A stretch of DNA of 64,000 nucleotides. Origin: Chitinophagaceae bacterium. Its GTDB lineage: Bacteria > Bacteroidota > Bacteroidia > Chitinophagales > Chitinophagaceae. The DNA lies in NCBI GenBank assembly GCA_947381435.1, contig CANCVE010000006.1, forward strand, positions 31,469-95,468. The letters run 5' to 3'. The number at the start of each line of letters is the position of its first letter. Within the stretch, counting starts at the first letter, position 1. A program made the position numbers and the translations under genes. The notes under the pieces were generated by a model. It had not been told where the DNA came from, ran no database searches, and saw only the letters and a list, made by a program, of their open reading frames with translations. Shown in pieces: positions 7,989-48,970 of the stretch.

Positions 7989-8198
7989 ATTACATGTATT
8001 ACAGCTTCTATTACATGTAATGAAAGCGCAATTACATGTAATACAACTCCTAGTACATGTCTTGTGAGAGTTTGTACATGTACAAGAGCTCCAATTTCAT
8101 GTATTGCAAGTGTAATTACATGTAATACAACCCCTATTACATGTATTACAGGCGTTATTACATGTAATACAAGCTTTAGTGGGTGTAATAAAAGTAGA
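7989..8198. repeat. tandem array, 10 units of 21 bp, palindromic ATTACATGTAAT core
   Basis: Ten consecutive 21-bp units fill the 5' region of the 3273-7898 gene. Each has a core near ATTACATGTAAT, a perfect 12-bp palindrome in the best copies, followed by about 9 variable bases such as ACAACCCCT. Central units (8052-8114) are the most diverged but keep ACATGT or TCATGT. The stretch is open in frames on both strands only because 21 is a multiple of three. I regard it as non-coding. Confidence 0.9.
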
Positions 8199-8297
8199 GT
8201 TAGTACTCTATTTCCTGCTGAAAACATTATTAAGTTGTTGTTTATTTCAGTTGTGTTTAATCTAGTGTCAGTTTACATAAACAATTCGGTTGAGTCA

Positions 8298-10439
8298 TTA
8301 TTTCCTATCCAATATTGCTTGATTCAAAGATTGACTTCCATCACCATTGCTGAACCTATTTATTTCTTCATCCGTTGGTAATTTCTTTCTGTATTCATCC
8401 AGATACAAACCAATCTTATCCATTGGTATGGCTTTAAATTCTGGCAAATCTTTAAATACTTGTGAAGTAGGTTTCAACCTAAAATCCATTTTAGCCATTG
8501 CCTCAAATCCCGGGTCTGTAGAATAAGCCATATTCCTACCATTGGCTACTGTCGAATCTTTTTTTACCTCCTTTCCATCTGCTGCAACAAACTTATACTC
8601 GATTGGAATACGACAGTTGACAGACACATTATTCTTCCAATTATTTTCGACAGAATCACGGGTCACAAATTCAAACCCTAGTCCGCAGTTTATAGCAATA
8701 TTGTTGTAACAATCCAACGGATAAGAAGTCTTTGGCATAGAACCATGCTTGAACAAATAAGCTGTTCCCCTCTTTCCTCCCCTACTGTTCAATGCCAGCA
8801 CATTTCCATAAACATGCATATTGAAATGGTCGTGGTCAAAATAGATACCATCACCATCATCGCTGTTGTGAATAAAATTATATGCAAATGTATTGTTGCC
8901 AGAACGGGTATAAAGGTCATAACTGTAAAATGCACCCAAATCATTCGACACAGTACACATTCTAAAAATCTCATTATACTCAAATACGTTATCCCAACTA
9001 CCATAGATAATACCTCCATGAGGCGTATCATGAATCAGGTTATGCGCCACATAATTACCCACACAGGTATGGTGTCCACCACCACCTCCGCCAGTAAAAC
9101 CAGCATTAACGGCAGGGGTGTAAATATGAACCAACTGACTAAAATTGTATATATGGTTATTCACAATCCGATGCCCCGCAGGGATACGAGGTGATACCGA
9201 TTCGTCGCCACCTGCAAGCCAAACACCCCCTTCGCCTAGGTTATACAAATCGCAACTTTGAACAGTATGATTGGTACCACCATCAATCTTAACTCCGTAT
9301 TTATTTACGTTTCTAATGGTACAACCAGCAATAGTATTGTTACTGCCCCCTTCGATAGAGATGGCCTCGTTCACACTTTGCTCAATAGTAATTCCCTTGA
9401 TAGTGATGTTAGAAGCGTCCTTCATGGCTATTACCGCTCCTTTGCTATCGGCAATAGCAATAGAACATTGATTAATATCTTTTGGCGGATAGAAATACAG
9501 TTTGTTATCCTTAAAATCAACTGCCCATTCACCAACAATATCTATTTCTTCCAATAGATTTAGTAACCAATATTGTTCTTTTCCATTTCCTTCAGGACGA
9601 GTATATTTATTGCCAATCCCTCCAGGCACAGGCTTCTTAAGTGTAATGGTTTTGGCAAGCGTGTCAATAGAGGCAATTCTTGCGCACTCGTTCTGCCAAG
9701 GTATTCGCCAATAGCCTTTTATCCAAACACCTCTATCTAATTGACCTACCCAATTTGCTGCACGATTGTCCCTATACTCAAATATTCCCGGCCTTGGAGG
9801 TCGTTTTTCCTTACTGCCCGCCGCATAAAAATTTGCCCAATCTTCATTCTTTGCTTCTTGTCCGCCACCATTCACAATCACCTTTTTCATTGCCATATAC
9901 CCCTTGTTAGGATAACGAGAAAGCGGCATTCTTTCTCCATTTGCAAAGAATCCTAAGATTCCACCATCATCATTAAAAATGTCGGGCAATATGTTGGTAT
10001 GATTCAAATTAAGCTCTGATAAATCAAGTGCGTATATCTTGCCCCTCAAAGAAGGTGCAATCCTGTCAAGTGTAGTTTTATCTTTTACAAGTTTAAACTT
10101 TGAGGAGGGGATATTTATTGTTCCGTCAAATACTACCTTTTCATTGGCAGCCGCAGTATAAACCACCGGCATTTCCTTAGTGCCACCATCTTCTTTAGTC
10201 AATTCAAGAGGACTTGTGAAGCGATAAGTTCCTCCCTTTATTACAACAGTTGCACCCATTTTAGCATGATCTATCTTCCTAATTACATCCCTTGCTTTTT
10301 GGACAGTTGCAAAGGGTTTCGTTTTACTGCCGTTGTTGTTATCCAATCCGGTAGGCGAAACATAATAGGTTGGTGAGTTCTGGGCATAAATAGCCGCATT
10401 AATCAACACATTTAGCAAGAAGAGGGTGTACACTTTCAT
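8298..10439 (-). CDS. secreted right-handed beta-helix protein (GH141-like)
   Basis: Exported 713-aa protein with signal peptide MKVYTLFLLNVLINAAIYA followed by QNSPTYYVSPTGLDNNNG. The N-terminal pattern (KPFATVQKARDVIRK, then a GGTYRF segment) is typical of right-handed beta-helix carbohydrate-active proteins, including GH141. The helix body spans roughly residues 330-640 with repeated NNTI/G-C-x-I rungs, for example ITIKGITIEQSVNEAIS and NNTIAGCTIRNVNKYG. The tail has the IGLYLDEYRKKLP element that also occurs in the 25688 protein and in the internal module of the 35833 giant, so the three are paralogous. There is no T9SS tail here. The start is the ATG at 10437-10439. Likely a polysaccharide-degrading enzyme or binder. 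The family-level assignment is moderate and the substrate unknown. Confidence 0.7.
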   Translation of the reverse strand: MKVYTLFLLNVLINAAIYAQNSPTYYVSPTGLDNNNGSKTKPFATVQKARDVIRKIDHAKMGATVVIKGGTYRFTSPLELTKEDGGTKEMPVVYTAAANEKVVFDGTINIPSSKFKLVKDKTTLDRIAPSLRGKIYALDLSELNLNHTNILPDIFNDDGGILGFFANGERMPLSRYPNKGYMAMKKVIVNGGGQEAKNEDWANFYAAGSKEKRPPRPGIFEYRDNRAANWVGQLDRGVWIKGYWRIPWQNECARIASIDTLAKTITLKKPVPGGIGNKYTRPEGNGKEQYWLLNLLEEIDIVGEWAVDFKDNKLYFYPPKDINQCSIAIADSKGAVIAMKDASNITIKGITIEQSVNEAISIEGGSNNTIAGCTIRNVNKYGVKIDGGTNHTVQSCDLYNLGEGGVWLAGGDESVSPRIPAGHRIVNNHIYNFSQLVHIYTPAVNAGFTGGGGGGHHTCVGNYVAHNLIHDTPHGGIIYGSWDNVFEYNEIFRMCTVSNDLGAFYSYDLYTRSGNNTFAYNFIHNSDDGDGIYFDHDHFNMHVYGNVLALNSRGGKRGTAYLFKHGSMPKTSYPLDCYNNIAINCGLGFEFVTRDSVENNWKNNVSVNCRIPIEYKFVAADGKEVKKDSTVANGRNMAYSTDPGFEAMAKMDFRLKPTSQVFKDLPEFKAIPMDKIGLYLDEYRKKLPTDEEINRFSNGDGSQSLNQAILDRK

Positions 10440-10574
10440 AATATAATTTTATCATTCATTTTTATTAATTGACCAATCAGACAATGGGCTTTAAATAAGT
10501 TGTTGGTTAAGAACACATTCAACGTTTATAAAGCTATAAATCCAAAACAGATACTTTTAAGCTCACTCTATGAA

Positions 10575-10640
10575 GAGTTGGGTTCAAAATGCCCACTTTA
10601 AACCCAACTCCTCATGGTTTAAGCGTCAAACCATGAGGAG
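10575..10640 (-). terminator. two adjoining hairpins downstream of the hydrolase gene
   Basis: Immediately after the stop of the 10654-12345 gene is a perfect 13-bp stem: CTCCTCATGGTTT (10608-10620) with AAACCATGAGGAG (10628-10640). A second perfect 10-bp stem, GAGTTGGGTT (10575-10584) with AACCCAACTC (10601-10610), shares three bases with the first, so the outermost pairs of the two stems compete. Probably the terminator of the hydrolase gene. The rest of the gap to 10440 is plain AT-rich DNA. Confidence 0.65.
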
Positions 10641-10653
10641 TGACCTTTTATTC

Positions 10654-12345
10654 CTATCTATTAACTAAAATTATCCTTTCCACTGGCATTGCTGTCTGCA
10701 CCAAAGGGGCTATTCCCCTCCCCCATTGCCAAGCAACCACCGTAATTTTTATTGGATAGTTTGCCCTTACAGGAAGGCTATCCAATATAAGTGTATTGCC
10801 CTTCATACTTGCTGGCCCCTCTTTTACATAATAATAAACAGGCAACCCAGCAGACGAAGTAGCATTCAATTTTATTTCTTTCGTATTTCCACTAATCGCC
10901 GCTATCTCAGGAAAATCAATTGTCTGTGGTGCGCCTTGGGTATTTTTCTCTGGGAACTTTATTTGTGCTGGCTGCTCGGCATATTTGTATGTTTCATCAC
11001 CATCTTTATAGGCCATCACCTGAATATTTGAGCAGAAACGACTAGTACCAAAATGATCGAAATGGATACGAAAACTATCATCAGCTAATTGCTCGCCACC
11101 ACCGCCCCAGCCGCCAATAAGGCTAAACTTTATTTTGCCCTTGTTGCTATGTGAAAGCGGAATGCCCGAACCCGCCACCCCTTCTGGTGTTTGGGTAAGG
11201 AAGCCAGCCTTTACACCAAAAGTAATTCCATCTGCAGAGGGCTGAAAAGCCAATTCATTAATCCATGAGGCAGGAACGGGTTTATCATATTGATTAAAAC
11301 AAACCCGCTGCTCTTTTTTTCCACCATATAATGCAGGAAATGCATCCACAGCCTTTGCCATTTCTTCGTCCAAATGCCAAAAGGCAAGGGTGTTATCTCC
11401 TTTAAAATCTTTAAATAAAATTGGACCAAAGCGATTATTATCCATGATATGAATATCTGTGAGCCATCCTTTGGTTTCATCGAGCGTATTGAGTACCACT
11501 GGATTAATAGTAGAAGAATTTTCCGCAGGGATACGGTAATGTGCAGCTTTCTGAATAAACATAGCACATAGTTTAGCCAATTTATCATCAAAATTAAAAT
11601 GCCCGACACCAGGCTGAACCACCTCACAAACAAGAGAATGGTTATACTTTGCTCGTAAATCTAACAAATCCCCTCGCAACCAACGCCAGTGTTTGTCCAA
11701 TGGTTCCAATGGATTAGCCCACGATTCATACTCTCCAGAAACAGCCATCACTGGTATGCCTTCTATTCTTGCTTTTGGATCATAATCGGGTGGGTTTACC
11801 ATGGCTGCTGCATGTAGTGTCAATATTCCAAAAACCCGTTGGGGCTTGCAATAGGCGATGCTATATGCACCATTTGCCCCACCAGAATGACCAATTGTGA
11901 ACAATGGCGCAGTAGCCACTTCGGTATATCCAGACACGGCCGCCAAATCATCCAATACCTTTTGTATTTGGGCAAAGGTGTTACCACCTTCCTTGTAATT
12001 AAACTGTGTAAACGGCCCTCTAAAAACCAATACTATACCTATACTTTCCTTTGTGCACGCCTCCCTTATTTGTTTATTAGCACAAAAAAGGTCTTCTAAT
12101 ATAACCTGATTGGCAAAAATAAGTCCCCTCACCTGCTTACAGTTTGGCGGCACCCATAGGAACGCCCTTGATTCTTTGTCTTTTCCATTAAGCGCTACAG
12201 ACCATTGATAGATGGCAGCTTGGGTATAAGGCTCTCTCTTTTCATGTGACGGTGCTACTATGGGAGTGATTTGTGCATAGGTGCTAGTAAATGAAGCGGC
12301 AAAATAGACTATTGCCCCTAAACAAATCAGTACCCAATTTTTCAT
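10654..12345 (-). CDS. secreted alpha/beta hydrolase (esterase-like)
   Basis: Exported 563-aa protein with signal peptide MKNWVLICLGAIVYFAASFTS ending at TYAQ. Residues about 60-270 form an alpha/beta-hydrolase domain with nucleophile elbow GHSGGANGAYS near residue 150. The probable acid and His lie in VMAVSGEYESW and PGVGHFNF. The remaining ~290 residues are beta-rich and end in a small Ig-like domain (about 480-563). Similar layouts occur in polysaccharide de-acetylating and PHB-depolymerase-like esterases, so removal of acetyl or feruloyl groups from plant polymers is a reasonable inference from its neighbours. It is transcribed with the other minus-strand enzymes but separated from the 8298 gene by strong hairpins, which suggests its own transcription unit. 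Confidence 0.7.
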   Translation of the reverse strand: MKNWVLICLGAIVYFAASFTSTYAQITPIVAPSHEKREPYTQAAIYQWSVALNGKDKESRAFLWVPPNCKQVRGLIFANQVILEDLFCANKQIREACTKESIGIVLVFRGPFTQFNYKEGGNTFAQIQKVLDDLAAVSGYTEVATAPLFTIGHSGGANGAYSIAYCKPQRVFGILTLHAAAMVNPPDYDPKARIEGIPVMAVSGEYESWANPLEPLDKHWRWLRGDLLDLRAKYNHSLVCEVVQPGVGHFNFDDKLAKLCAMFIQKAAHYRIPAENSSTINPVVLNTLDETKGWLTDIHIMDNNRFGPILFKDFKGDNTLAFWHLDEEMAKAVDAFPALYGGKKEQRVCFNQYDKPVPASWINELAFQPSADGITFGVKAGFLTQTPEGVAGSGIPLSHSNKGKIKFSLIGGWGGGGEQLADDSFRIHFDHFGTSRFCSNIQVMAYKDGDETYKYAEQPAQIKFPEKNTQGAPQTIDFPEIAAISGNTKEIKLNATSSAGLPVYYYVKEGPASMKGNTLILDSLPVRANYPIKITVVAWQWGRGIAPLVQTAMPVERIILVNR

Positions 12346-12562
12346 AGTGTTTACAATATTTAAATAATTACTTTGTCAACCTTATTGAAACCAAACATTG
12401 CTTTATTCATAAAACAATCCCCCGAAGCCATTATTAGACAAGGGGGGATATGTTTAATTCGTTATGTTGGTTACTATAATTACAACCAAAACTCTAAGCT
12501 ATAGCGGAGAAAAACTTTAAAAGCAACGAACCTTTTTAATCATTACAAATAATCAATGTTCT
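12346..12562. other. intergenic stretch with a short hairpin
   Basis: AT-rich spacer between the 12563 gene and the start of the hydrolase gene at 12345. The only structure seen is TCCCCC (12418-12423) facing GGGGGGA (12442-12448), a 6-bp G/C stem with an 18-base loop. No open frame of note. Confidence 0.4.
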
Positions 12563-12811
12563 TTAGTTGAGCTTTAATGCTGAATTCTTTTTAGATGCAT
12601 AAGCAATTCCACTTGCCGCTAAAATCAAACTCATGCCGCCATCAAAAGGAACAACAGGACCACCATCTCCACTCGGACCATTGCCGGGAGAACCTGGTCC
12701 ACCAATACCTGGATCGTCGGCAGGGCTTTGTGCATTAACGGTTGTATTTACACAGAGGCTAAGCATTAAAGCTAAACCAAATATCCCCAGTCTTTTTGCT
12801 ATTGTAAGCAT
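12563..12811 (-). CDS. small exported protein with PID-CTERM-like tail
   Basis: An 82-aa protein. A Sec signal peptide (about residues 1-27, ending VNAQ) is followed by a Gly/Pro/Asp-rich linker (residues 28-52: repeated GPGSPGNGPSGDGGP-like motifs) and then VPFDGGMSLILAASG, a short hydrophobic segment and the basic tail YASKKNSALKLN. The VP(I/F)DGG-hydrophobic-basic pattern matches the PID-CTERM sorting signal described for short Bacteroidota proteins. Function unknown; a surface or membrane-anchored small protein is the natural inference. A 21-bp tandem array lies 75-214 bp upstream of its start. Confidence 0.7.
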   Translation of the reverse strand: MLTIAKRLGIFGLALMLSLCVNTTVNAQSPADDPGIGGPGSPGNGPSGDGGPVVPFDGGMSLILAASGIAYASKKNSALKLN

Positions 12812-12885
12812 TGTAATTATTATTAATGTTGATTAAAAATGACTGTATCAATAATTCCATAGCCCAAATTGAAGATAAAAACGAC

Positions 12886-13025
12886 TTCTTTGAAGGGCTA
12901 AAAGAACACTTTCAAGAGCTAAAAAAACACTTTCAAGAGCTGAAAGAACTCTTTCAAGAGCTGAAAGAACACTTTGAAGAGCTAAAAGAACTCTTTGAAG
13001 AGCTGAAAGAACTCTTTGAAGAGTC
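12886..13025. repeat. tandem array, about 6.5 units of 21 bp
   Basis: Units follow CTCTTTGAAGAGCTGAAAGAA, with C/G and A/C variants at a few positions and TTCTTT/AAAGAA dyad symmetry within the unit. On the plus strand one frame (ATG at 12826, stop at 13113) reads as a heptad-like coiled coil (ELKELFE repeated), but the flanking residues look random. Arrays of the same period elsewhere in the window do not encode plausible proteins, so I treat it as non-coding. Lies between the giant gene's 3' end and the 12563-12811 gene's 5' end. Confidence 0.85.
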
Positions 13026-13106
13026 CAATGTTCTCAGTGGAGCGTTCAATGAACCACTTTTGTTGCCTTTTCTATCTTCTAAAAAGAACTTCCAGTTGTT
13101 AAAGCC

Positions 13107-13136
13107 GGGTTGACAACTCTTGCTAGTTATCAACCC
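13107..13136 (-). terminator. hairpin after the 13163 giant gene
   Basis: GGGTTGA (13107-13113) plus AACT pairs with AGTT plus TCAACCC (13130-13136), with one C-A mismatch and a 6-base loop. It sits about 25 bp past the stop of the minus-strand giant gene. A modest T-run follows on that strand. Confidence 0.5.
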
Positions 13137-13162
13137 AATACTATAACGTGCCTCTCACTTAT

Positions 13163-16100
13163 CTAAGGTTGAACTGATAAATTTGATTGATAAACAGCCT
13201 GACCATTTGCATCTCTTACAGTTACACTATAAGTTCCTGCTGCTATGGTACTGTTAACTGTCAATGCATGACTACCGTTGCCACCTGCATGGCTGATAGC
13301 AACTTCTTGAACTCTTTGTCCTAATACATTATTAATAACAACGGTATAATTACCAGCCGCTACATTAGTCAAACTAACATTTACCACTTTCGTTCCCTTC
13401 AAAGGATTAGGGTAAAGGCTGTAAGACGGTAAACGGTTATCGGAAGACACTTTAACAATGTTACTATAGCTAACTGTTCCTACTTCGCTAATTGCCTTGA
13501 TACGATAGTAATTGGTTGCGGCACTGATGTTATTATCAGAAGTATTATAGCTAGCTATAGATGTATTCTTTGCATTTACCTGACCAATCTTAACGAAGCT
13601 CTTAGCATCGGTAGATTTCTCTACTTCAAATCTAGAAACTCCCTTCTCTCCTACTGTGTTCCAACTGACATTGGCAATCTTATTGTTTAAAGTTGCAGTT
13701 GCTACTATGCTGTTTACTGCCAAGGTGGTTGCTTTGAAAACAATGCTGAACCTGTTTGAATAAGTTGCAGCTATCGAAGTATCTACTGTAAAATTAATTG
13801 TATCTATACCAGTTGATAACGACTTGATAACACCTCTATAGCTATCTTTCAACATTGGCACGAATCCATTAATTTCATATACACTTGCATTAATTACCAA
13901 TTTATAGTTCTTACCACTCAACTTACTCAAGGCAATCGGCAATACATCACTAGCGGTGGCTGGTAATCTACCATCAATACTCAAGTTTTTACCCTTATCA
14001 GAGATGAACAAATTATCGTTTGCACCCGTAAACTTTAACGCATCTTGTGGTCCATAAAAGGTATTACCGAAGCTAGCTGCAAAAGCAATAGCTGCTCCAT
14101 CCTTACGGGCATAAAAAGTAACACTATCCTCTTTCATTAAAGAAAGATAAATCTTACTCATTGGTTTACTTACCCCAAAAACAGAAGTCTTAGTAGAATT
14201 TACAGCTTTACAATTTTCTGTAAACACAACACTTGGGCTTGCTGAACTACTCTGTACAAAGAACGCTTGGCCCGGTTGTATGTAACCCGCTGCATTATTT
14301 GTAGTTCCGTTAAATGAACCTGGATATGTTGAACCTCCTACAGTTGCACTACCAGTAATAGCATTGAAAGCAATATACTTACCAGAAGCACTAGCCGTAG
14401 GATCGAGATACCAATAGCTACCATTTACATTGCTCGAGTTACCAAACACTGTGTTTGTATTTCCTGTTTGTGTTCCAGTTACACCAGTTCCCCAAAGTAC
14501 TGGACATACATAAGGATTAGCAATCATACTGAATCCATTTGTAGTTGAAGCAGTAAGACCATTTGTAGAAAGCAAAGTTGCTGCACTTCCATTAACTGTA
14601 GCTGTAACACCACTAGGATCGTAAGTTACATCGCCATAAACAAGGTTTCCAGTGGCTCGAAGTTTGGTATCATTTACCATTCTTAACCCAATATTATAAT
14701 AGTCAACAATTGGTGTAGTAGCCAAATTAAAACTTCTATCACCTCTAACCAGTACCCTATATCCACTAAAGGCATCTAGTGTAGTGGTTTTAGTATTGGC
14801 AATGGCGTTAAACCCAGCATTATATGCAGAGCCATTAGTATAACTATACGCAGAAACATTGCCGTTAATACTGTAATCTAAACCATTGGCATCTGGTGCA
14901 GGTTGTGAGTTGTAGAAACCACCAGAATTGGCATGTAACGCTGTTGTACCTGTTATAAAGATTCCTGACCCACTAGTTAATGAACCGTTTTCTTGCCAGT
15001 TTAAGAACATGCTTCCCGCATTATAAACTTCAGGAGCAATATCACGATAGCCACGGAAACCAGCAGGTATAAATCGTTCTACCTGAACAGTACCTTGTAA
15101 TGATCCCAAAACCTTGTCAACAATTGCAGTATTTGAAATAGAAGTTGATTTTAAAATAAGTCTATTTGTACCTGTATTAAAGTTTCCGTTCGAAATAGTT
15201 AAAACCCCTGTAAGAGATTGTGCTCCTCCAGTGATAGTAGCCCCTAAACTATTGTTCAGAGTCAGATTAGTTATTGATCCATTTCCAGAGATCGTTTGAG
15301 CAGCAGTACCTACTAAATTGGTATTACCAGTACTAGTAATTGAGCTATTGTTTGTAAGAGTACTAAATAAATTGGTAGTACCAGAACCTGTAATTGTGCC
15401 ATTGTTTGTAAGTGCTCCAACTAAATTAAATGTTCCATTATTTGTAACTGTACCTCCAGAATTTACTGTCATAGTAGTAGGAGAATAGAATGTCTTACCG
15501 GAAGGAATAGTCACTTTACCGTTGTAGGCACCATTATTCAAGTTAAATACTGGATAGAATGACAAGCTACTTGAAGTTGAACTTGTTGCTGCTGATGAAA
15601 TAGTAATTGAACCAGTACCGATTGTACTGATAGTAGCACCAGTTGGAATTCCAGAGCCAATAACAATCATTCCAATATCCAACCCAGTTGTTGGACATGT
15701 AACAGTGGTACTAGCAGAAACTAGTGTAGCACTAACATTCAATACAGGTGATAATGATCCTGATAGATTAATGTTATTACCAATTGAAGCTGCAGAGGTA
15801 GTATGGTTAATAGTAAGATTACCAGGAATTGTAATTGTACCTCCACTTGCAAATGCTATATTATTAGTTGTCCTTGTACCTCCAATACTTAAGCTGTAAT
15901 AATTAAAGACAGGGATAGTCTGTGTATTAGAATTACTGAAAGTAATTGTTCCTGCAGTTACACCAGTAGTGTTATTCGGTGTAAATATGTTCTGCACAGT
16001 CATACCGCTACCTGCTTGCATGTTAGTGTTAGTGCCAAATGATACATTATAGAATCTCATGTTTGCACAAGCAGGTAAAACCTGATTTGTACCAGTAAAA

Positions 16101-24829: not shown

Positions 24830-24954
24830 ACTGCTTTTTTTAGAAAACGAAAACGGTAAAGAAGAATGGAGGTTATCCCTCATAAATTTTGAAATTGTTG
24901 TTACAATCGTATACATAGCAAGCGTGTGTTCGTTATAAACATTAAATACCGATG

Positions 24955-24962
24955 CAAAGTTA
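24955..24962 (-). promoter_or_regulatory. putative -7 box of the giant gene
   Basis: On the minus strand TAACTTTG is an exact match to TAnnTTTG. It would start transcription near 24948, leaving a leader of about 120 bases to the ATG at 24829. No clear -33 element is seen. The box supports the shorter gene start. Confidence 0.5.
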
Positions 24963-25227
24963 CCAAACACTATGCTGCATCCACTTGTTCGGATGTTGCA
25001 ACTAATTGTCTTTTTCGTTCAATAACGGTCAATTGGGTATATTCCAGTATTTAGCACTACATCACTTCTTTCAACAGATGTTGGTCATTGTTATGAAATA
25101 ACATTTTCTATATCTCCTTTCCTTTTTCTTAAAGAACAAGCGGTACCATGTTTATTACGTGCCTATGAAAACCTATGTGTTGAATCTTTTTTTACTTGTC
25201 TACAAGTCCAATAACTCGAAACATTAA

Positions 25228-25578
25228 TGGCAAACCTAGTAGACTCAGATGGCAAACCAAGTAGATTCCGATGGCAAACCGAGTAGACACGAATGCCAAA
25301 CTAAGTAGACACAGATGGCAAAGAGAGTAGACACGATGGCAAACAATGTAGACGTCGATGGCAAAGGGAGTAGACGCTGATGGCAAAGGGAGTAGACGTC
25401 GATGGCAAAGAGAGTAGACGCGAATGGCAAAGGGAGTAGACGCGAATGGCAAAGAGAGTAGACGCGAATGGCAAAGAGAGTAGACGCGACTGGCAAAGGG
25501 AGTAGACGTGAATGGCAAACCGAGTAGACATCGATGGCAAAGAGAATAGACGCGAATGGCAAACAGAGTAGACATTAA
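25228..25578. repeat. tandem array, 16 units of 22 bp
   Basis: Sixteen direct units follow TGGCAAAgrGAGTAGACgcgaa. TGGCAAA and AGTAGAC are nearly invariant, while the three bases between them and the last five bases vary from unit to unit (unit 5 is one base shorter). Because 22 is not a multiple of three, all three minus-strand frames give similar repeated peptides; none looks like a gene. The array fills the divergent intergenic region between the giant (-, start 24829) and the beta-helix gene (+, start 25688). Bases 24963-25227 hold no other recognisable feature. Confidence 0.93.
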
Positions 25579-28765: not shown

Positions 28766-28796
28766 TTGAGTAAGAATAATGTTTAATTAAAGAATA

Positions 28797-31025: not shown

Positions 31026-31029
31026 ACCG

Positions 31030-32152: not shown

Positions 32153-32218
32153 AATTATTGAAATTAATACTGTTGAAAAAGAGAAAAAGAGATATAATAA
32201 CAATTTAAAAATACAATT

Positions 32219-34459: not shown

Positions 34460-34491
34460 CGTTTTCTGTTTTTTCATTTGATTATTATATT

Positions 34492-34524
34492 CAAAAGGGG
34501 CTTGTCTAAGTCCCTTTTGTTTTA
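34492..34524 (+). terminator. rho-independent terminator of pflB
   Basis: CAAAAGGG (34492-34499) and CCCTTTTG (34512-34519) form a perfect 8-bp stem with a T-rich tail (TTTTAC). It would separate pflB from pflA unless read through, so pflA may be expressed at lower level or from its own promoter. Confidence 0.75.
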
Positions 34525-34563
34525 CTATTTTTGAAAATAAAAGTTGTTATTATCTAGAGCATT

Positions 34564-34684
34564 TTTACCACAAAGGACACAATGGTTTTCACCAAGAACA
34601 CAAGGATTATTTTGTATTAATTTTACAGAAATAACAACAAAACTTAGTGTCCTTAGTTTTTTAATTGTGTTCTTAGTGGTAAAG
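34564..34684. repeat. imperfect inverted repeat, 42-bp arms
   Basis: The left arm (34564-34605, TTTACCACAAAGGACACAA onward) and right arm (34643-34684, ending TTCTTAGTGGTAAAG) are reverse complements with a few mismatches. A related half copy lies at 28721-28765 and a related inverted pair (TGCCACAGATGACACAG type) at 55562-55655. It behaves as a small non-autonomous hairpin repeat inserted between pflB and pflA. Confidence 0.7.
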
Positions 34685-34716
34685 CTCCTAAAAAGTAACC
34701 ATAAATTTATTAAAGT

Positions 34717-35508: not shown

Positions 35509-35668
35509 GCTATAATTAGAAGCATAGTATAAGGCGTTGATTCAGGTTTCTCACTATTTCATTCAAAGCATGAATATTGGATTAGTTGGACGTTTTAGTT
35601 CAGTTAATCAATGCCCAGAAAAATTTACTAAAAAAAATGAATTGATTGTTGCTTTTATTAACAAGGCT

Positions 35669-35763
35669 GTATAAATAATCTTCGCTACAACCTATTCGAT
35701 GACTAACCCTATAATGGCTCTATGCCCTTATAGGGTTTTGGTGTATGCGAAAATTATTTATAC
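35669..35763. repeat. nested inverted repeats
   Basis: The outer arms GTATAAATAATCTTCGC (35669-35685) and GCGAAAATTATTTATAC (35747-35763) match at 16 of 17 positions. Inside them lies the perfect 10-bp stem listed separately. This is about a 95-bp hairpin-like element in the 324-bp gap between pflA and the giant gene's 3' end. The rest of the gap shows nothing recognisable. Confidence 0.6.
35705..35737. terminator. hairpin between pflA and the giant gene
   Basis: AACCCTATAA (35705-35714) and TTATAGGGTT (35728-35737) form a perfect 10-bp stem around a 13-base loop. It sits between convergent genes and may stop transcription from either side. TTGG rather than a long T-run follows on the plus strand. 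Confidence 0.5.
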
Positions 35764-35832
35764 ACCCGTTAACAATTAGGGTACATACAGTTAGACAACA
35801 GCCCTTACTAGGTATACAATATGCCAATCCCA

Positions 35833-41800: not shown

Positions 41801-44800
41801 ACAGTGGTTTTACTCACAGTAAATCCATTTAATGCAGTTCCATTATCATAAAACTGAATACCTGAAAAGCAATTAGCTGCATTAGGCAATACTACTCGTG
41901 CCGTGAGAATGCTTGTATCAGGAATGATATGATTAGTGGTACTATTGACAGATAAATTAATAAACGGCGCAATTCCTTTAACACCTATTGAAGAAATATC
42001 CGTTCTGAATGAGTCAACATAAACACCAATACGATTGATATGCCAGTCGGTAGCACCCGCATAAGTTAATAGTCCCGGACTTCTTAAACTATCCATTAAG
42101 AATGGATAAATTGGGTTCTTTAGCTTATTGTAAACCTTATAATTGTCCTGAAACACCATTCCCCATCTTGTAAAAGGATCACCTGTTCGTGCATACGTAT
42201 TATTGGTAGATCCATCAGCATTAAACAAGCTAGCATCATTTACATAAGTAAATGTCTGACCAGAGAAATTAGGGCCGAAAGTGTAGAAGGTATTGTTTTT
42301 CATCTGACTCCAATACTGAGAAGTATAGGATTTATTAACCCCATTCACAGAATCTACCAAGTCTATCAGTTCTGGGAAAGTAGATTGCCAAACGGGGTTA
42401 CTATACCATAGGTTTTTGATTACAGGATAATTTCTGACAAAATCTATAATGGTATCAGCGGTATAATTTCCTACGGCAGGTCTTTCCTGATTTACGAATA
42501 TATTGTTGTAGAACCGATTATAGTTTCCTCCATTGTTACCCATTCCCCAAATAGAATTGGCTACGATATTATATACACAAGTATCCCCTGAGGTATTGTT
42601 ATCCATATACAAACCATTGGCACCAAGTATGTCGTGTAAGTAGTTATGGTTCAACTTATGCCCCCTGTCTTTCCAAACGCCCGTACCATATAAAGCACCC
42701 ATATCAGAATAAACCAACACCACACTATCTACCTCATTGTATTCAAAAGTAGATAGATCGCCTCCACCAAAACCATAAGCAATACCTATGTGAGGACACT
42801 TTCTCACCTTGTTATTTGCCACATAAACCCCGATACATCCTCCAGGATCAATGGCTGCATTGTACAAAGGTGTTTGTTGGGCATAATCATAAAAGTAGTT
42901 ATTGATTACCGTATCATAGCCACGCTTCAAGGTATTAATATCCGTATTGTAACTGTTATTAAACATTGCCACGCCACCAGCTCCAACTTGGTGTATATCA
43001 TTACTCTGCACTGCCGAATAAGTTACATCAGTCAGCACTATCGCATCATCGGTGCATTGGGTAATATCGCAACCAGCTATCCGAACATGATGAGCACTAC
43101 TTACATTAATGGCATTGCCTGCACCGCCTATAAAATTAATATTCTGGAACTGTGTGTAGTTTGCACCTGTAGCAGATATTGCTGGCATGGTGAGTGAGTC
43201 TGCGTACTGAATAACTCCAGTATCTGGCACCCACATATACAACATCTTATTATTGAAATTGATGCTAAACTCTCCAACGGTATCAATTTCCTCATAAAGA
43301 TTAGATACAAAATAAGGCTCCTCATAGTTTCCTGCATAAGCTGCAAACTTGTTACCAATGCCTAATTGAACGCCATCTTTTTGATAGATAATTTTATTTA
43401 CCGTATCAATGGTTTTTGTCTTAATAAACTGAATTACAAACGATACCCGCCAGTTACCTGCCAGCCAAACACCTTCATCATTCATGGCATTTACCCAACG
43501 ATTAGTTCTGGTATCACTATAATAAAATATACCTCCACTATCTGTCTTATTGGTTCCTTTGTAAATTACCCCATTCATACTCATGGTGGTATCATTGGGG
43601 TAACGGGACAACATCAATGGCGTAGTATTCTGGTAAAATATTGGATACTTAGGGGTATTATTAACCACAGTAGCCCACGGTGTAGTACTCTGAGGATTGA
43701 TATTGTACGATGCAAGGTTCAACTGCATCACCTTACCTTTTGCACTAGGGTCGATAATCCTTTGTTTTACGCTATCAGGTATTGGCTGAAAGTCTGCCCT
43801 ATTAATAACTTTCAGTGGTTGAAAGATTGCCTTCCCCTTATTGATGGCTTTATAAATGGCTGGGGCATTGGCCGTACGGGCATCTGCACTAGTAAGAGTT
43901 AATTGATAGTAAGTACCATCTTTTAGTAAAACATTTATTGGATTATTAGGATAATTCTGCGCCACCACTCTTGCACGAGCCAAATTTACTGGCAGGTTAA
44001 AAGTAGCACCACTACCTACACCGCTACCATTAGGAGCAGCATAAATATTTACAGTTTGCCCTGCGCTATAGCTAGGTAATGATCCTGCACCAACAGGATT
44101 ACAAGAATAACTTCCCGCACCTGTTGTGGTAAGGCTTCCAAAAAGGGTGTCATTGCAAAGAGCAGCAACGCCCCCAACAGATATATTATAAAAGTAATTT
44201 TGATTGGAAAACGTGTTAGAAACTGTTCCATTCATGGCTACCGTTCCTATTCCGTAAGTAAACGTACCATTATTGGTAACAGTTGGTGTAGCACCCGTCA
44301 TGGTTAAAACGCCCCCACTCGTCATTCTTATTGTACCATTATTAACTAATGAATTTACAGATAAGGTATCTGTATTTCCGAAGGTTATTGTGCCTCCACT
44401 AGATATGGTAAGGTTGCTGCTGGATGTAGCATAATTGGCGGTACTGATAGTAACCGAATGGGCAATGGTTACGGTTGAACCCGTAGGTGGTATCGCCCCT
44501 CCTACCCAAGTTGAAGGACTACTCCAGTCGCCGGCTTGAGCAGAAATATATCCTAGAATACTAAAGGCGTAACCATTAGTAACCGTTCCGCTTACAGTAG
44601 CAGTAACATTTCCAGAAGTGGCATTGGCAGGTATAGTTGTTCTTACTTGGGTACTACTTACAAAAGTGGTTGCATTGGCACTGCCTCCATTAAAAGCAAA
44701 AGTGGTACCCGAAACAAAGTTTGCTCCATTGATGGTTAATAATTGTCCGACATATCCTGAGTTAGTAGTAGCCCCACCTGTAATACCAGTGATAGTTGGC

Positions 44801-47800
44801 GTAGTAGAATAAGTTCCTAATACAAAATAACTGGTGCTTCCATTGGTGATTGTTGCAATACTGTTTGAGGTAGTGATAGCACTTCCACTTGCCGTTCCGG
44901 CAATGGACGAATAAGTTCCTGAAAGAGAACTACTTTTTGCCATCAAGTTATACGGTGCTATAGCAACGCCTGTTCTGGTAAGGGATATATTGCCTGCTGT
45001 GATATTACCAACCGATGCAGCAATACTCCAATACTCAGTTCCACTAATGGCAGAGACAGTGGTATTGTCAGCTGTACCTCCGCTATTACTAAGCGTTGTC
45101 TGTACGGTAGCTACAGTAGTTCCGCTTGTACTCGTAGTAGGACTATTTAATGCTAATGGATAATAGCTTGTACCCGAACCAACTGGAAATAAATAAGTGT
45201 TACCACTACTAGCAGGTAATGTCCAGGCAAGTATTCCATTAACAAAACAGGTAGAGCTAAATGAACCAGTAAAGGCCGAAGTAGCAGTATTAGTTATTGC
45301 AATCTGGTTGGCATTGGTGGTAACTATTCCATTGTTTAGTGTTAGGGTGTTGGTTACTGTTACCGAACTGTTTAAACTAACCCCTCCATTGGTATTACTG
45401 ATGGTAAGATTAGGAAAAGACTCACTACTCGAATTGGTGTTTGAGATGGTTTGCGCAATGCTTCCATTCAAGAAAACCGTTCTATTGTTGGGAGTGAATG
45501 TTCCTGCCCCATGCGACCAATTTCCACCTACATAAATATCTCCACCAGAAAGATTTCCTAAGGATAAATTACCATTCGCCGTAACATTTCCGCCTACAGT
45601 CAAAGCCCCCGTACTCGTTGTTGGTGTTCCATAATCCATAGAAAAAGATGAACCTGCATCAACAGTTAAATATCCTGCTAGCGTTCTTGCTGGCGATACA
45701 TTTCCATTAGGATAATTTAGTGTGGTGTTATTACTTACTTGTACACTTTGTGGCAATCCTGCTGTGGTACCAACCGTTCCTGTGGTAGCACTCCATTCAT
45801 TTCCTCGGTTAAATACCCCTCCAGTATTATATTTCAATAATGAAGATGATCCATAGACAGGAACATTTGCAAATGAGCCTCCGGTATTCAATTGAGCCGC
45901 TCCATTAAGAGTTAAGGTAGCACTAGGAAAAGAAACCGTAGCTGCTGTTTGAAACACCCCGCTTACTGTTCTGTTTGCACCTGTGTTTAGCGCTAATCCA
46001 CCTTGAAGTATGGTTATATTGGTAGGACTACTTGTTGCTGGCCAATAAATATCTGCATTGTTTACAGTGGTAACTCCAGAAGTATTAAATACTAATGAAC
46101 CGTTACTATATACCCACGTACCACTACCCGCAACTAATCCACCAGTATTTAACTGAAAATTTCCATTACAATTTACACTTCCATTAGTAGTAAATGCTAC
46201 ACCGGTAGCCAAGGTAGCACCTGCATCGATGGTGGTAGTACCAGCTGTTGAGGCAGTGGTACTAAGTGTAACCACCCCAGTGTTACTTACGTTGAGTGCA
46301 TTAAAAGCAAGTGCATTGCTAGAGGTAGAAGAGATGGATTGATTAGTACCATTAAACACAACCGTACCGCTATTATGGGTAAAGTTGCTGGTATTAGCCA
46401 TCGTAAAATCTTTTCCTACAATGAGTTGAAAGCCCACACCGGGTGCTTTCAAAATTTCTGTATTGGAGATGGCTAAAGTACCGGCAACTTCTACCGAATT
46501 TACTAGGGTATGTGTGGCGGTACCACTAAAGTTCACATTATAAAAGGCATTGCTACCCGTTAGCGTACCGGTGATATTTCTGCTAGCACCTGCATTAAAA
46601 TTAATCGTACCGCTATTATGGGTAAAGGCAGTACCAGTAAAGGTGAAAGCATCGCCAACAGACATGGTAGTGGGTGCGGTGAATGCCCCCGAAATAGTAA
46701 TGGCATTAAAATTATAAGCGCCCGTTCCACTCAAAACATTGGTTCCTATAAAGTTTAAAGTAGAGGATGTATTGGCGAAAGATGTTCCATTATTTACAAT
46801 ATTTCCATTGATATTATTACCTGTAACTGCTGTGGTAAAAGTTGCCCCACTAGTTAAGGCTATATTATTAAACGTAGTGGCGTTTCCGCTGAAAGTTGTT
46901 GTACCACCAAAACTAATTGTACCACTGTTGTGGGTAAATGTTCCATTGTTTAGTAGGTTACCATTAATGCCCATCGTACCCGATGGAGCAACCAATGTAG
47001 TACCACTAACAATATTTATATCATTAAAAGTAAAAGTTCCATTGCCAGTAATGTTCGCTGTGCCACTTCCAGTAAAGTAGGTATTACACTTCGGCGTTCC
47101 CGATAAAGTAATAGTACCGCTATTATTGATAACTGTTCCCGTACCCGACAATACCAAAGTATGTGAAGTGCCTGTAGAACCCAATACTAAAGAGGCATTA
47201 CTTGCAACGGTTAAAGCACCCACAGAGAGCGCTCTGCTAGTTGAAGTATTACCAATAGTAAGCGTAGCATTGGTATAAGTGAAACCCGTACCTGCATTGG
47301 TACTAGTTGAATTGTTAATAAAGAGATTGGTGATAACCGCCGTATTAGATGCATCTACCGTAGTGCTATGGTTGATGTACATGTTAGTGATGGTGCTGCT
47401 TGCGGCATAAAAGCTAAGGGTAGTACTAGAGGAAACAGTAGTAGCACCCTGAGACATCACTAGCTGCTGACCAGAAATAGACGACACATACGTTCCACCA
47501 GGAATATTGCTACCTATAACTAACTGTCCTACTGCTACAGAAGCATTGCTGGCACTTAAATAAACCCTGTTATTGGAAGGCTGCAAACCACCAACGGTAA
47601 TGAAATTGCTAGGGCGGGTAGAGGATGGCCCACTACTTATCTGGATACAGTTTGCATTGCCTCCAATGTTTATAGCCGTAACATAGTTTGTACCTGCAAT
47701 ACCAGTGGCACTAATGGGCATACCCACTGCCACGCCTGAAGCACTTTGCAGTTCTATAATGTTGTTACTAGCTACCTGACCGCCAAAAGTGAGGGCTACA

Positions 47801-48477
47801 CCCGTGGCAGTGGCAGTAGCATTTGCCGAAATAACCATACTTGGCGTAGCAGCATTGTAAGAAACGATATAGCTATTGGCAGGAATACCGCTACCAGTAA
47901 TGGGCTGCCCGGCAACGATGTTTGCATTGGCGGCTGTAAGTGTAATGGTAGATGAACCCGAAGTGGTACTACCTGTAGCAGTATTGGGGGTGGAAAGTGT
48001 AAGTGTAATACCCGATCCCGTACCAGCAGCAGCCGATGAAAGAGTGATGGAGGTATTGGCAACAAAAGAAACCACCGTGGCATTACTTGGTATATTGGTA
48101 CCACTAACCACCTGCCCCACCACCACGCCACTAGTAGAACTTACACTAACTGTTGTGGAAGAATTAGTAGAGGCATTGGCAATAGTGGTAACTGTATTAC
48201 CAATAGTACTTTTAACTACAAAACTAGTATTTGATGCCTGCGTAGTAACAGTGGTAGCCGCATTTGCCGGAGCTACGGTTGCAGTTTGCCAAGTACTATT
48301 TGCAGTAGGTGTATTATACGTTTGCCAGTTGGTAGTGGTACTAAAACTAGCCGTACCTATGGTGCGGTAATCGCCGGTTTGCTGTGCGCTTAGTTTCACG
48401 CAAATGTTCATTAACAACAAAAGGAAGAAAGACCTGAACAGTATAGAATTTGAAGAAATAAGGTGATTAAATTTCAT
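35833..48477 (-). CDS. giant T9SS surface protein with internal beta-helix module
   Basis: A 4214-aa exported protein. The signal peptide is the hydrophobic run SFFLLLLMNICVKLSAQ after MKFNHLISSNSILFR. Residues 35-1470 are Ser/Thr/Gly beta-strand repeats with an IPT/TIG-like domain near 1229. Residues about 1476-2150 form a complete beta-helix module paralogous to the 25688 protein, opening VNIYAAPNGSGVG, with FQPIPDSVKQRIIDPSAKGK, and closing at HINRIGVYVDSFRTD. An Ig-like domain follows, as in that protein. Beta-strand repeats resume (about 2270-4000) with a second IPT-like domain near 2646. A fibronectin-like domain (about 4031) and a T9SS type A tail (about 4130-4214) end the protein. It probably combines an adhesive or filamentous scaffold with a carbohydrate-active module at the cell surface. 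Confidence 0.85.
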   Translation of the reverse strand: MKFNHLISSNSILFRSFFLLLLMNICVKLSAQQTGDYRTIGTASFSTTTNWQTYNTPTANSTWQTATVAPANAATTVTTQASNTSFVVKSTIGNTVTTIANASTNSSTTVSVSSTSGVVVGQVVSGTNIPSNATVVSFVANTSITLSSAAAGTGSGITLTLSTPNTATGSTTSGSSTITLTAANANIVAGQPITGSGIPANSYIVSYNAATPSMVISANATATATGVALTFGGQVASNNIIELQSASGVAVGMPISATGIAGTNYVTAINIGGNANCIQISSGPSSTRPSNFITVGGLQPSNNRVYLSASNASVAVGQLVIGSNIPGGTYVSSISGQQLVMSQGATTVSSSTTLSFYAASSTITNMYINHSTTVDASNTAVITNLFINNSTSTNAGTGFTYTNATLTIGNTSTSRALSVGALTVASNASLVLGSTGTSHTLVLSGTGTVINNSGTITLSGTPKCNTYFTGSGTANITGNGTFTFNDINIVSGTTLVAPSGTMGINGNLLNNGTFTHNSGTISFGGTTTFSGNATTFNNIALTSGATFTTAVTGNNINGNIVNNGTSFANTSSTLNFIGTNVLSGTGAYNFNAITISGAFTAPTTMSVGDAFTFTGTAFTHNSGTINFNAGASRNITGTLTGSNAFYNVNFSGTATHTLVNSVEVAGTLAISNTEILKAPGVGFQLIVGKDFTMANTSNFTHNSGTVVFNGTNQSISSTSSNALAFNALNVSNTGVVTLSTTASTAGTTTIDAGATLATGVAFTTNGSVNCNGNFQLNTGGLVAGSGTWVYSNGSLVFNTSGVTTVNNADIYWPATSSPTNITILQGGLALNTGANRTVSGVFQTAATVSFPSATLTLNGAAQLNTGGSFANVPVYGSSSLLKYNTGGVFNRGNEWSATTGTVGTTAGLPQSVQVSNNTTLNYPNGNVSPARTLAGYLTVDAGSSFSMDYGTPTTSTGALTVGGNVTANGNLSLGNLSGGDIYVGGNWSHGAGTFTPNNRTVFLNGSIAQTISNTNSSSESFPNLTISNTNGGVSLNSSVTVTNTLTLNNGIVTTNANQIAITNTATSAFTGSFSSTCFVNGILAWTLPASSGNTYLFPVGSGTSYYPLALNSPTTSTSGTTVATVQTTLSNSGGTADNTTVSAISGTEYWSIAASVGNITAGNISLTRTGVAIAPYNLMAKSSSLSGTYSSIAGTASGSAITTSNSIATITNGSTSYFVLGTYSTTPTITGITGGATTNSGYVGQLLTINGANFVSGTTFAFNGGSANATTFVSSTQVRTTIPANATSGNVTATVSGTVTNGYAFSILGYISAQAGDWSSPSTWVGGAIPPTGSTVTIAHSVTISTANYATSSSNLTISSGGTITFGNTDTLSVNSLVNNGTIRMTSGGVLTMTGATPTVTNNGTFTYGIGTVAMNGTVSNTFSNQNYFYNISVGGVAALCNDTLFGSLTTTGAGSYSCNPVGAGSLPSYSAGQTVNIYAAPNGSGVGSGATFNLPVNLARARVVAQNYPNNPINVLLKDGTYYQLTLTSADARTANAPAIYKAINKGKAIFQPLKVINRADFQPIPDSVKQRIIDPSAKGKVMQLNLASYNINPQSTTPWATVVNNTPKYPIFYQNTTPLMLSRYPNDTTMSMNGVIYKGTNKTDSGGIFYYSDTRTNRWVNAMNDEGVWLAGNWRVSFVIQFIKTKTIDTVNKIIYQKDGVQLGIGNKFAAYAGNYEEPYFVSNLYEEIDTVGEFSINFNNKMLYMWVPDTGVIQYADSLTMPAISATGANYTQFQNINFIGGAGNAINVSSAHHVRIAGCDITQCTDDAIVLTDVTYSAVQSNDIHQVGAGGVAMFNNSYNTDINTLKRGYDTVINNYFYDYAQQTPLYNAAIDPGGCIGVYVANNKVRKCPHIGIAYGFGGGDLSTFEYNEVDSVVLVYSDMGALYGTGVWKDRGHKLNHNYLHDILGANGLYMDNNTSGDTCVYNIVANSIWGMGNNGGNYNRFYNNIFVNQERPAVGNYTADTIIDFVRNYPVIKNLWYSNPVWQSTFPELIDLVDSVNGVNKSYTSQYWSQMKNNTFYTFGPNFSGQTFTYVNDASLFNADGSTNNTYARTGDPFTRWGMVFQDNYKVYNKLKNPIYPFLMDSLRSPGLLTYAGATDWHINRIGVYVDSFRTDISSIGVKGIAPFINLSVNSTTNHIIPDTSILTARVVLPNAANCFSGIQFYDNGTALNGFTVSKTTVSYDTVTYSITYTGAALGNHSITCKLTDAPYWQYTSTPFTFTTDSAMTWTGNTSTDWNTASNWSNNRTPLTTDVVTIPGSVSRMPVVNNGTKTVKRFTLKTGSSITLQNTNDTLAVTGDIQSAGTFSGNGVLQALSTTTTPLSAGQNWGVTVYYGASGQTVVSGNYTKLDLSGGNSTLSSTGTTAVSGDLVLGSTTVTAGTSTVQFNGSGSQAISGAVGFYNLQLNKSGVVNPLTLGAAVTVSNNLTLTSGRIVSTATNSLTISNAATSAVTTVGASAYVDGPLSWNAAAGSNSYVFAVGDYNASSQYLPDTITTVANAGVVTVTAFKGNSGGTYNSTLTSINTADYWSVQSSVANTIAMTVTPASLSTNNVLGQSSTVNGVYASVGGIATQTSIATSGIVLAANTPSWFVAAYYPSPTITSIVSCLPGIAAGTFFPRDTLTITGNYFQTSTNVIVGGQVATVLTAQSSLPTMMKVLVSSTASTGAIKVGSTNFNGTFVPGYVSRYDGSWNTGTTWLGGVQPPNGTSFKDTITINNVVTMATSVSGIQTLTINAGASYTTSNVGTTFNSGATLTNNGTYSSNNSSVYTNLTLVNNGKVTLGGQSYVNVNLTNNAGDSVIISSASITMSGTITNNGYFKHTATGFYLNGSITFNGSNVDTINSLTTNTATPGIITFNTAPYLNGNFSLNSNFTVTGNYPTYGGNLYYNTGASQTIGSEWKPNTSSGAGVPAAVQIGNGNAGSTVSLVSGNSYKCSGALTVSNGYTLSIPSSTTFQSNGLKVIGILNIADGGQIQSSSTVTVNSTGILNVGSAVLSAPATTASNASLLVTSGALNDTGTVNNYGYIKMSAANVVLLNTGSLAMQANSVLEVANASPAIPSATWDDSSFVYITGVTSGNPTNISQTFGNIVWNSTSQTGNLSITGLNTISNSFIVLNTGSGSVRLNNATNSYGALQVGGSYNFNGNIVNTTAASLNVGFTTAGATTVNGNVSIGANGTLAAGTVGTSIALTGNWSNAGTFTNTNTTVTFNGTTATAQTITKTGGETFNNLTINTSGSGGVILNNATTIASTLTLTAGNLSLGSNNLTVNSGATISTPSSSSYIITNGTGRLIRKAVSTATAFPIGTASSHTPLTITNNTASDMTVGVSPTLTNGVNDNTKIVNLQWSVAAATATTNSSIVYQFNTADKASAFSTASACELGIYTSSYSVSSVGTPSANGSSFALTKTGLAFTANATYLNVIGNTGSINCTTGSYVGANDGDANLSGNWCGDLPTSSTNVVIATNVPKLTSNLSVNNLSISSGLNLNGYTLTVNGTVTGTGSITGSATSGLNVLGTGTLYFDQTTPGTTNVLDTLIVNSSGTVTLGNALNVLNLVKPTAGILASGGNLTLISNATTGTARVSQGATNGGYITGKVTQQLYIPNKTARRFSFIGSAVAQRIDSAWQQQIYITGSGTGGVVCGTGGTQYNSNGFDATATYKSSMFTYSATAVNGNRYVSIPNTNATSLSPGTGYEINIRGDRNVGTCTDQLNSNTPTAPVSVVLSATGLLTQGPLTVSLNDTTKHLFTLLANPYPNQMRFSTFQAANTAINNKMWTFTPYGNGNFTTYSNGLVTNAATGYNNTKGDFIAIGQAFFVEANKTGTSVTFRETYKVDSTIPNFNYFGLNNERIIRMGLYTTANRLLDEVALRYNSQGTKEYNAAWDAASFSGGGQKLAIQKTGSNLLAIATRPIALKNDTVPLSVRSTTAANFRLQFTGLSGFDSSTTIILRDNYLDASQDVSINPIYDFAITADTNSKGSGRFVLEIGGQSTLPLTFTGLSGKLISGRIELSWSVANEVYIKDYVVERSVNGVDYKCIADVKSANKSSTTYSTIDANPVEGINYYRIKAVGIGGSISYSKSIKVESDGNAPQLSIYPTLIANHAFNLHCKNIPTGTYRVVVYNLLGQKVFSKGIQMAEGEEIRLINFGNARVAVGAYEVQVANSAGINIKRVKVVVE

Positions 48478-48569
48478 TCGTGCAATCGATTATTTAATTA
48501 TTTCTGGGCAATGACAAATAGAAATATAAAATAACGACACAAAAAAGTAGCAGGATAATCCTCATGTTG

Positions 48570-48576
48570 CAAAGTA
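48570..48576 (-). promoter_or_regulatory. possible -7 box of the second giant gene
   Basis: The minus strand reads ATACTTTGCAAC, close to the TAnnTTTG consensus and similar in context to the exact box before the other giant gene (TAACTTTGCATC). It lies about 95 bp before the ATG. One T short of consensus, so tentative. Confidence 0.3.
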
Positions 48577-48718
48577 TGTTCCCTAACAATCAAATTGGTT
48601 ATTACACGCTAGGAAGTTGTTTTGAAGAGAACTATTTATGTGAATGATTTAGTGGATTATACTTGTATTTTCCGCTGTTTTATTGATGCCAATAGTAGTG
48701 TTTTCCTTACGATTTAGT

Positions 48719-48970
48719 CGGAGTATCGTTCTCTTTTGCCAGAGAATCGTTCTCTTGTGTCGGAGAACCTTTCTCTTGTGTCGGAGGATCGTTCTCTTTG
48801 GTCGGAGGATCGTTCTCTTGTATCGGAGTATCGTTCTCTTGCATCGGAGAACCGTTCTCTTGTGTCGGAGTATCGTTCTCTTGCGTCGGAGGATCGTTCT
48901 CTTGTATCGGAGGATCGTTCTCTTGTATCGGAGGATCGTTCTCTTTGGTCGGAGGATCGTTCTCTTTGGT
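48719..48970. repeat. tandem array, 12 units of 21 bp
   Basis: Twelve direct units follow CGGAGGATCGTTCTCTTGTAT. CGGAG, TCGTTCTCTT or close variants are constant; variation is concentrated at positions 6-8 and 17-21. Some copies contain GAGAACCGTTCTC, an exact dyad around a central base. Open frames on both strands are a by-product of the period. The array lies about 240 bp 5' of the 35833-48477 gene. Confidence 0.92.

Follow-up and report, generated by a model that had tools for sequence, protein, structure and literature searches.

The window analysed here is a 64,000-nucleotide stretch of a Chitinophagaceae draft genome (GenBank assembly GCA_947381435.1, contig CANCVE010000006.1, positions 31,469 to 95,468 of the forward strand). 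It contains four tandem arrays whose repeat units span about two turns of the DNA helix. We tentatively read these arrays as members of a genus-wide, intergenic, satellite-like set that keeps a unit of about two turns while its sequence turns over, and that likely serves as chromosome-organising sites at the DNA level, not as a control of single genes, probably read by their spacing and dyad symmetry more than by their sequence. Position and geometry appear to be retained while sequence is replaced.

Results

The 21-bp repeat series in the genome

The window belongs to contig C6 of the draft genome, here G000 (4.88 Mb in 231 contigs); G-, C- and L-numbers denote genomes, contigs and loci. An earlier inspection of the window, the sequence-only reading, had reported four arrays with periods of 21, 21, 22 and 21 bp and mutually unrelated units, and had taken the shared geometry as a sign of one process. 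The periods and the dissimilarity of the units were all confirmed, recurrence at a lag of 21 bp lay far above chance, and the geometry turned out to extend genome-wide and to recur in most of the congeners sampled.

We scanned 1.259 Mb of G000 (26% of the genome, window included) with Tandem Repeats Finder (TRF), taking as strong those arrays with a TRF score of at least 100 and as the 21-bp series those with TRF periods of 21–22 bp, 41–44 bp or multiples of these. Of 106 strong arrays, 89 fell in the 21-bp series, which by extrapolation suggests ~340 arrays in the whole genome. The label, being assigned by period, also caught a few composite arrays and one coding repeat (C7 3529-7231); a length limit removed these from the dyad, family, spacing and curvature tests. 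The median array length was 193 bp, and the arrays are minisatellites in form, with short units head to tail (TRF and unit listing).

Exact 8-mer recurrences, counted per kb of intergenic DNA in the G000 sample, were concentrated at the same lags: 6.94 at lag 21, 1.13 at 22, 2.87 at 41, 7.86 at 42, 0.69 at 43, 1.24 at 44, 4.64 at 63 and 5.06 at 84. The baseline was 0.04–0.09 at lags 10, 11, 23, 31 and 32, 0.14 at lag 20 and ~0.05–0.15 at most other lags; the one-turn (10, 11) and three-turn (31, 32) lags were not raised. Alternation of variant units gives the 42-, 63- and 84-bp periods, which are higher-order repeats. Periods were not broadly distributed over the 1.26 Mb, so that the shared geometry stands. 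A heptamer class, with intergenic recurrences of 0.40 and 0.74 per kb at lags 7 and 14, is separate from the 21-bp series; a 14-bp repeat at 54203-54230 of the window belongs to it.

The main alternative is that the arrays are neutral or selfish minisatellites, arising where a lineage-specific slippage or repair process duplicates two turns of DNA, and then expanding, homogenising and decaying without function in those intergenic stretches that tolerate them. We regard this as only somewhat less probable than a chromosome-organising role. The higher-order periods and a graded decay of units are ordinary satellite dynamics, and a weaker lag-21 peak that persists once strong arrays are masked (0.62 per kb) resembles births or remnants of arrays. 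On the other hand, such a process alone leaves it unexplained that units come in two turns only, and within genes in-frame duplications of 21 bp are not enriched (lag 21 at 0.14 per kb, like other multiples of three). Two further candidates were rejected: a CRISPR array, on units that follow one another head to tail every 21–22 bp, with few variable bases and not with unique spacers of about 25–60 bp between constant repeats (no search for cas genes was made), and a plasmid iteron array, on the spread of 89 arrays over 1.26 Mb of contigs, many of them adjoining housekeeping genes.

Placement between genes

Genes were called with a simple codon-statistics caller (coding fraction 0.78), and neighbours were identified by Pfam. 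No overlap with a called gene was seen for 84 of the 89 G000 arrays. The 82 arrays that were placed lay in 41 co-directional, 31 divergent and 10 convergent gaps; gaps of at least 250 bp number 157, 83 and 42 in these classes. Among the neighbours are an MraY-type transferase with a MurD-type ligase, ALAD (hemB) with coproporphyrinogen oxidase (hemF), a mutL-like protein, PEPCK with an amino-acid kinase, a transketolase-type subunit with TauE, and a MurG-type transferase, as well as secreted beta-helix, sulfatase and SusD proteins.

A preference of the arrays for 5' regions of exported-protein genes, proposed in the sequence-only reading, was rejected on these counts and neighbours. Each of the four window arrays does lie 5' of one gene or more, yet arrays 1 and 2 lie equally 3' of the next; in the sample, arrays occupy every type of gap, and their housekeeping neighbours make the association with exported genes in the window a local one. 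Phase-variable expression, another earlier suggestion, is unlikely because arrays adjoin housekeeping genes in every orientation.

Since 21 bp is seven codons, the arrays could instead encode heptad repeats of small coiled-coil-like proteins. An open frame does run through array 2 (LFEELKE-like residues), and coiled-coil profiles gave weak matches, all far below the cut-off. This explanation was nevertheless rejected as highly improbable: periods of 22, 41, 43 and 44 bp disrupt the frame, the coding score calls no genes in the array frames (the arrays being outside called genes as counted above), and the changes between units of array 2 hit codon positions one, two and three.

Several arrays lie at or near contig ends (L002, L004, L005, L008; G009:C531:1-155; G001:C44:4-154), so that they may break short-read assemblies.

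Sequence families

BLAST among 88 arrays at E 1e-5 gave 29 related pairs, compared with none in column-permuted controls, and grouped the arrays into 63 clusters, none with more than three members in this 26% sample of the genome. The largest family found in the whole genome, that of array 3, comprises 8 loci including the window copy, and that of array 4 comprises 5, again including the window copy. A single high-copy family of the REP/BIME kind was rejected on this cluster distribution. Within the array 3 and array 4 families the similarity shown stops at the array edge, at least among the matches listed, and without shared flanks a mobile element that carries the array was rejected, as was a MITE with an internal minisatellite (BrickBuilt type), whose common flanking ends were not found in these families. 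Array 2 is the exception: it has relatives on contigs C126 and C41, and its flanks are ~75% identical to those of the C126 locus (locus pair L012/L013), so that the neighbourhood was duplicated and the array kept along with it. Array 1 has a 35-bp match on contig C3, where a related array also sits. When 12 congeners were searched for the array 3 family, matches were found in G009 and G001 only.

Small families of this kind might each be the regulon of one DNA-binding regulator, with its operators set in a row. The families do consist of few loci with similar units and unshared flanks, and each unit combines a core with variable bases. Even so, this is a decidedly improbable reading, because arrays are as frequent between convergent genes, and within the cell-wall and haem gene clusters, as the numbers of gaps predict, 63 clusters in a quarter of the genome would demand very many regulators, and close species carry different units at the same orthologous gap.

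Dyad symmetry

In a column-shuffle test, which compares units with shuffled column orders at the single-unit or 41–44-bp period, dyads reached p ≤0.05 in 22 of 63 arrays at a 20–22-bp period and in 37 of 60 at a 41–44-bp period, with ~3 expected in each case. Where an array had the longer period only, 13 of 26 were symmetric, and direct similarity between the half-units was ≤0.12 in 23 of the 26. The corresponding counts in the congener G005 were 10 of 25 and 19 of 24. At the single-unit period, array 1 of the window was symmetric (p 0.015) and array 3 borderline (0.06), and arrays 2 and 4 gave 0.20 and 0.22; by this test the earlier statement that three of the four cores are symmetric was too strong.

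Compensatory changes inside arrays were few (16 cells in 38 arrays), so the case for covariation comes from a single between-species site, the mraY-murD gap. There, in a set of 30 units drawn from five species, pairing holds in 85.6% of stem cells, a figure in which the outer stem pairs are partly selected because the units were picked largely by a TTT-N11-AAA pattern that excluded most G006 units. At this site 16 cells were altered on both sides, compared with 7.7 in shuffles (reached in 0 of 500).

Dyad-symmetric units could alternatively work at the RNA level, as stems that lie between genes or follow them and serve in processing, stabilisation or attenuation. Consistent with this, arrays occur within likely operons such as mraY-murD and hemB-hemF, and stem mismatches in co-directional gaps, read on the sense strand, favour G.T over A.C (34 vs 20). 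The wobble bias is weak, however, with 54 vs 45 where the sense strand is undefined; 31 of the 82 placed arrays lie between divergent genes; RNA stems need no fixed 21-bp step; and many arrays have no detected dyad, while an Rfam search of the window gave no match. We therefore hold transcribed hairpins to be improbable.

Relatives and orthologous gaps

Arrays are as dense in the congener G005, with 39 in a 600-kb sample, as in G000, and none of the 39 overlaps a called gene. MraY relatives in named records point to Chitinophagaceae (e.g., Sediminibacterium, 71–75% identity), and 80 such loci from other Bacteroidota (1.386 Mb) served for comparison outside the genus. These held 14 strong arrays, of which 2 carried the 21-series label: a 1.9-copy 42-bp repeat (L161) and a 66-bp array of 7-bp units (L138). 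Counted over all sequence, lag-21 recurrence was 1.59 per kb in G000, 1.89 in G005 and 0.22 in the 80 loci, where lags 7 and 14 (0.26 and 0.28 per kb) were on a par with lag 21; the heptamer class is present there. Small samples of G001, G003, G006, G007, G010 and G011 contain 21-series arrays, and none was found in 60 kb of G012, 20 kb of G022, 9 kb of G008 or 1 kb of G019.

Fifteen array pairs are related across genomes, and for 13 of the 39 arrays of G005 the G000 sample contains a relative. Comparison of orthologous gaps, with one genome per species and presence judged by reading the sequence, found 20 of 29 occupied by an array in the relative, often with different units; for reference, arrays occupy 81 of the 333 gaps of at least 200 bp in G000. 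The mraY-murD gap has an array in five of eight congeners (G005, G001, G002 with three units, and G006 and G009, decayed) and none in G010, G011 and G008, or in the more distant G004, G012 and G022; G003, whose spacer was not recovered, is left out of the count. After murG, before a gene that is presumably murC from the gene order, all six relatives read have a spacer with a 21-bp period, weak in G001, made of units that differ from those of G000. The hemB-hemF gap, which has an array in G000, holds unrelated arrays in G002 and G006 and none in G001, G010 and G005; in G005 (L284/L293), 532 bp of other sequence, perhaps with a small gene, lies between short repeats.

At the mutL-like site one family is found in G005 and G003 (~three units) and another in G006, with none in G001 and G002, and the G000 and G005 arrays are unrelated though the adjoining gene is 95% identical. 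The gap between CN-hydrolase and amidohydrolase genes carries one family in G003 and G010 and a palindromic variant in G006, and the transketolase-TauE gap has an array in G005 and none in G003. Four further G000 sites, one of them PEPCK-AspK, were not counted because no fetched relative kept both flanks. Arrays of 42 and 21 bp lie 3' of PEPCK in G003 and G006 (L316, L318), where the next gene may differ from that of G000. Random stretches of G000 and G005 had 33 neighbour pairs in common; the gap reached 100 bp in 16 of them and none contained an array, which makes that comparison uninformative. Between species, each represented by one genome, arrays differ in length and presence.

These results bear on the neutral explanation in both directions. 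Rapid turnover of sequence, empty orthologous gaps and families that sit at differing places in several congeners are what minisatellites without function would produce; unrelated arrays at the same gap in close relatives, and arrays after murG in every relative compared, are left unexplained by it alone.

Spacing

Distances were measured between occupied gaps and compared with a null of random placement on gaps. The coefficient of variation (CV) of neighbour distances was 0.634 in G000, compared with 0.83–0.86 for the null (P 0.001–0.003; mean distance 12.4 kb), and 0.498 in G005, compared with 0.82–0.86 (P ≤0.0007; mean 13.3 kb). Arrays are thus more evenly spaced than expected in two genomes, which neutral expansion alone does not explain. 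Nucleoid organisation, one of the functions raised in the sequence-only reading, gains indirect support from this even spacing.

The four arrays of the window

Table 1. Tandem arrays of the 21-bp series in the window
Feature	Position	Strand	Description
Array 1	7975-8198 (TRF call ends 8176)	no strand	21-bp units around palindrome ATTACATGTAAT; 42- and 84-bp higher-order periods
Array 2	12887-13025 (TRF call ends 13023)	no strand	21-bp units, CTTTGAAGAGCTAAAAGAACA type; 42- and 63-bp higher-order periods
Array 3	25226-25578 (TRF call ends 25573)	no strand	22-bp units, TGGCAAAGAGAGTAGACGCGAA type; 16 units, one of 21 bp
Array 4	48717-48970 (TRF call ends 48966)	no strand	21-bp units, GTCGGAGGATCGTTCTCTTGT type; ~12 units

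Two other repeats adjoin array 4: a 20-bp inverted repeat of GAGGAACGAAGCAACC type at 49084-49149, which resembles a dispersed palindromic element, and a 70-bp tandem repeat of 2.2 copies at 49233-49385, outside the 21-bp series. The gene at 50561-53851, in which EVE domains are combined with KAP-NTPase ones and a QatA-like match was seen (E 1e-11), possibly encodes a defence protein.

Discussion

The evidence is consistent with, and leads us tentatively to favour, arrays that act as chromosome-organising sites recognised largely by geometry. A protein, probably a dimer spanning about two turns, would bind the arrays cooperatively; a cooperative, two-turn, dyad-preferring protein would account for the missing one- and three-turn units. 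Block exchange of two to four units, seen as the 42-, 63- and 84-bp periods, may homogenise each array. Diversity of sequence between arrays would be tolerated, and perhaps favoured, because it limits recombination among hundreds of sites. A more specific and somewhat unlikely form of this proposal is a satellitome coded by geometry, in which one nucleoid protein of the genus packages or anchors the chromosome at about one array per 12 kb, blind to sequence and reading two-turn periodicity and dyads. With such recognition, selection would keep position and period while sequence diverges, so that recombination between sites is avoided.

Several observations weigh against a chromosome-organising role. 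The proposed array-binding protein is hypothetical, and in many arrays a dyad was undetected. The even spacing is mainly a deficit of pairs 2–4 kb apart (5 vs 14.3 expected); the shares of G005 distances below 4 and 6 kb are by themselves borderline (P 0.04–0.09), and two arrays of the cell-wall cluster lie 4 kb from each other. The 29 orthologous gaps were chosen for the presence of an array in G000 and the species are related, for which reason no P value is given for the 20 occupied cases. At mraY-murD, pairs with a change on both sides numbered 2, compared with 2.1 in shuffles, and so show no excess. Periods of 22 and 41 bp keep helical phase inexactly; the earlier suggestion that identical sites lie on one face of the DNA is therefore no more than roughly true, since the 22- and 41-bp families lose phase along a long array. 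The G000 assembly is split into 231 contigs, and its genes come from the simple caller only.

Predicted curvature showed no excess over column-permuted arrays. In a rough wedge-angle model, curvature was higher in arrays than in array-free intergenic DNA (56.7 vs 45.5) and was highest at the 21-bp step among steps of 19–24 bp, yet the ratio of real to column-permuted arrays was 0.95, which in this model would rule out intrinsic bending as the selected trait.

We found no description of an array system with a two-turn step in the open-access literature searched, which omits most subscription papers. Bacterial repeats are usually grouped into families by the sequence they have in common, so that ordinary annotation misses a class united by the length of its unit. 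Neutral arrays would point to a mutational process that proceeds in two-turn steps, likewise not found described in that literature.

The closest known system is that of Porphyromonas gingivalis, also a member of the Bacteroidota, whose BrickBuilt MITE and 464/PgRS repeats likewise stand in tandem between genes, with units of 23 and 41 nt, 22 nt also being reported, and with several copies per genome (PMC4596501). As described there, BrickBuilt has one sequence, with 19 copies in one strain, a leader, a tail and inverted ends (PMC4596501), unlike the present arrays, which form many sequence families and have no shared flanks in the two families compared. REP/BIME elements, which are short extragenic palindromes, are similar in being numerous and often clustered and, for those arrays in which dyads were detected, in their symmetry, but they are defined by shared sequence and the tags GTAG and CGTC (PMC3733652, PMC12306157), whereas the arrays have a fixed unit length and no common sequence; E. 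coli REPs are gyrase targets (PMC3733652). Heptamer direct repeats (TAACTGA etc.) are likewise intergenic and occur in Bacteroidota and other phyla, with a role given as not established in the report and in the SPADE survey; they differ in having 7-bp units (PMC4679880, PMC6344855). That class forms a series of its own in G000.

Iterons lie at a plasmid origin together with its cognate Rep; they are direct repeats with a step of about two turns, and a protein binds them in register. The arrays share the two-turn direct repeat with iterons and differ in having many sequences and in lying all over chromosomal contigs. Eukaryotic satellites show higher-order repeats and turnover of families. In those with monomers of nucleosome length, unit length is tied to chromatin geometry (PMC8122249); the present arrays differ in being short, dispersed and bacterial, with a packaging protein that is hypothetical. 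If functional, they would represent in bacteria the type of satellite in which the unit reflects DNA packaging, and would provide natural position markers for the study of chromosome domains.

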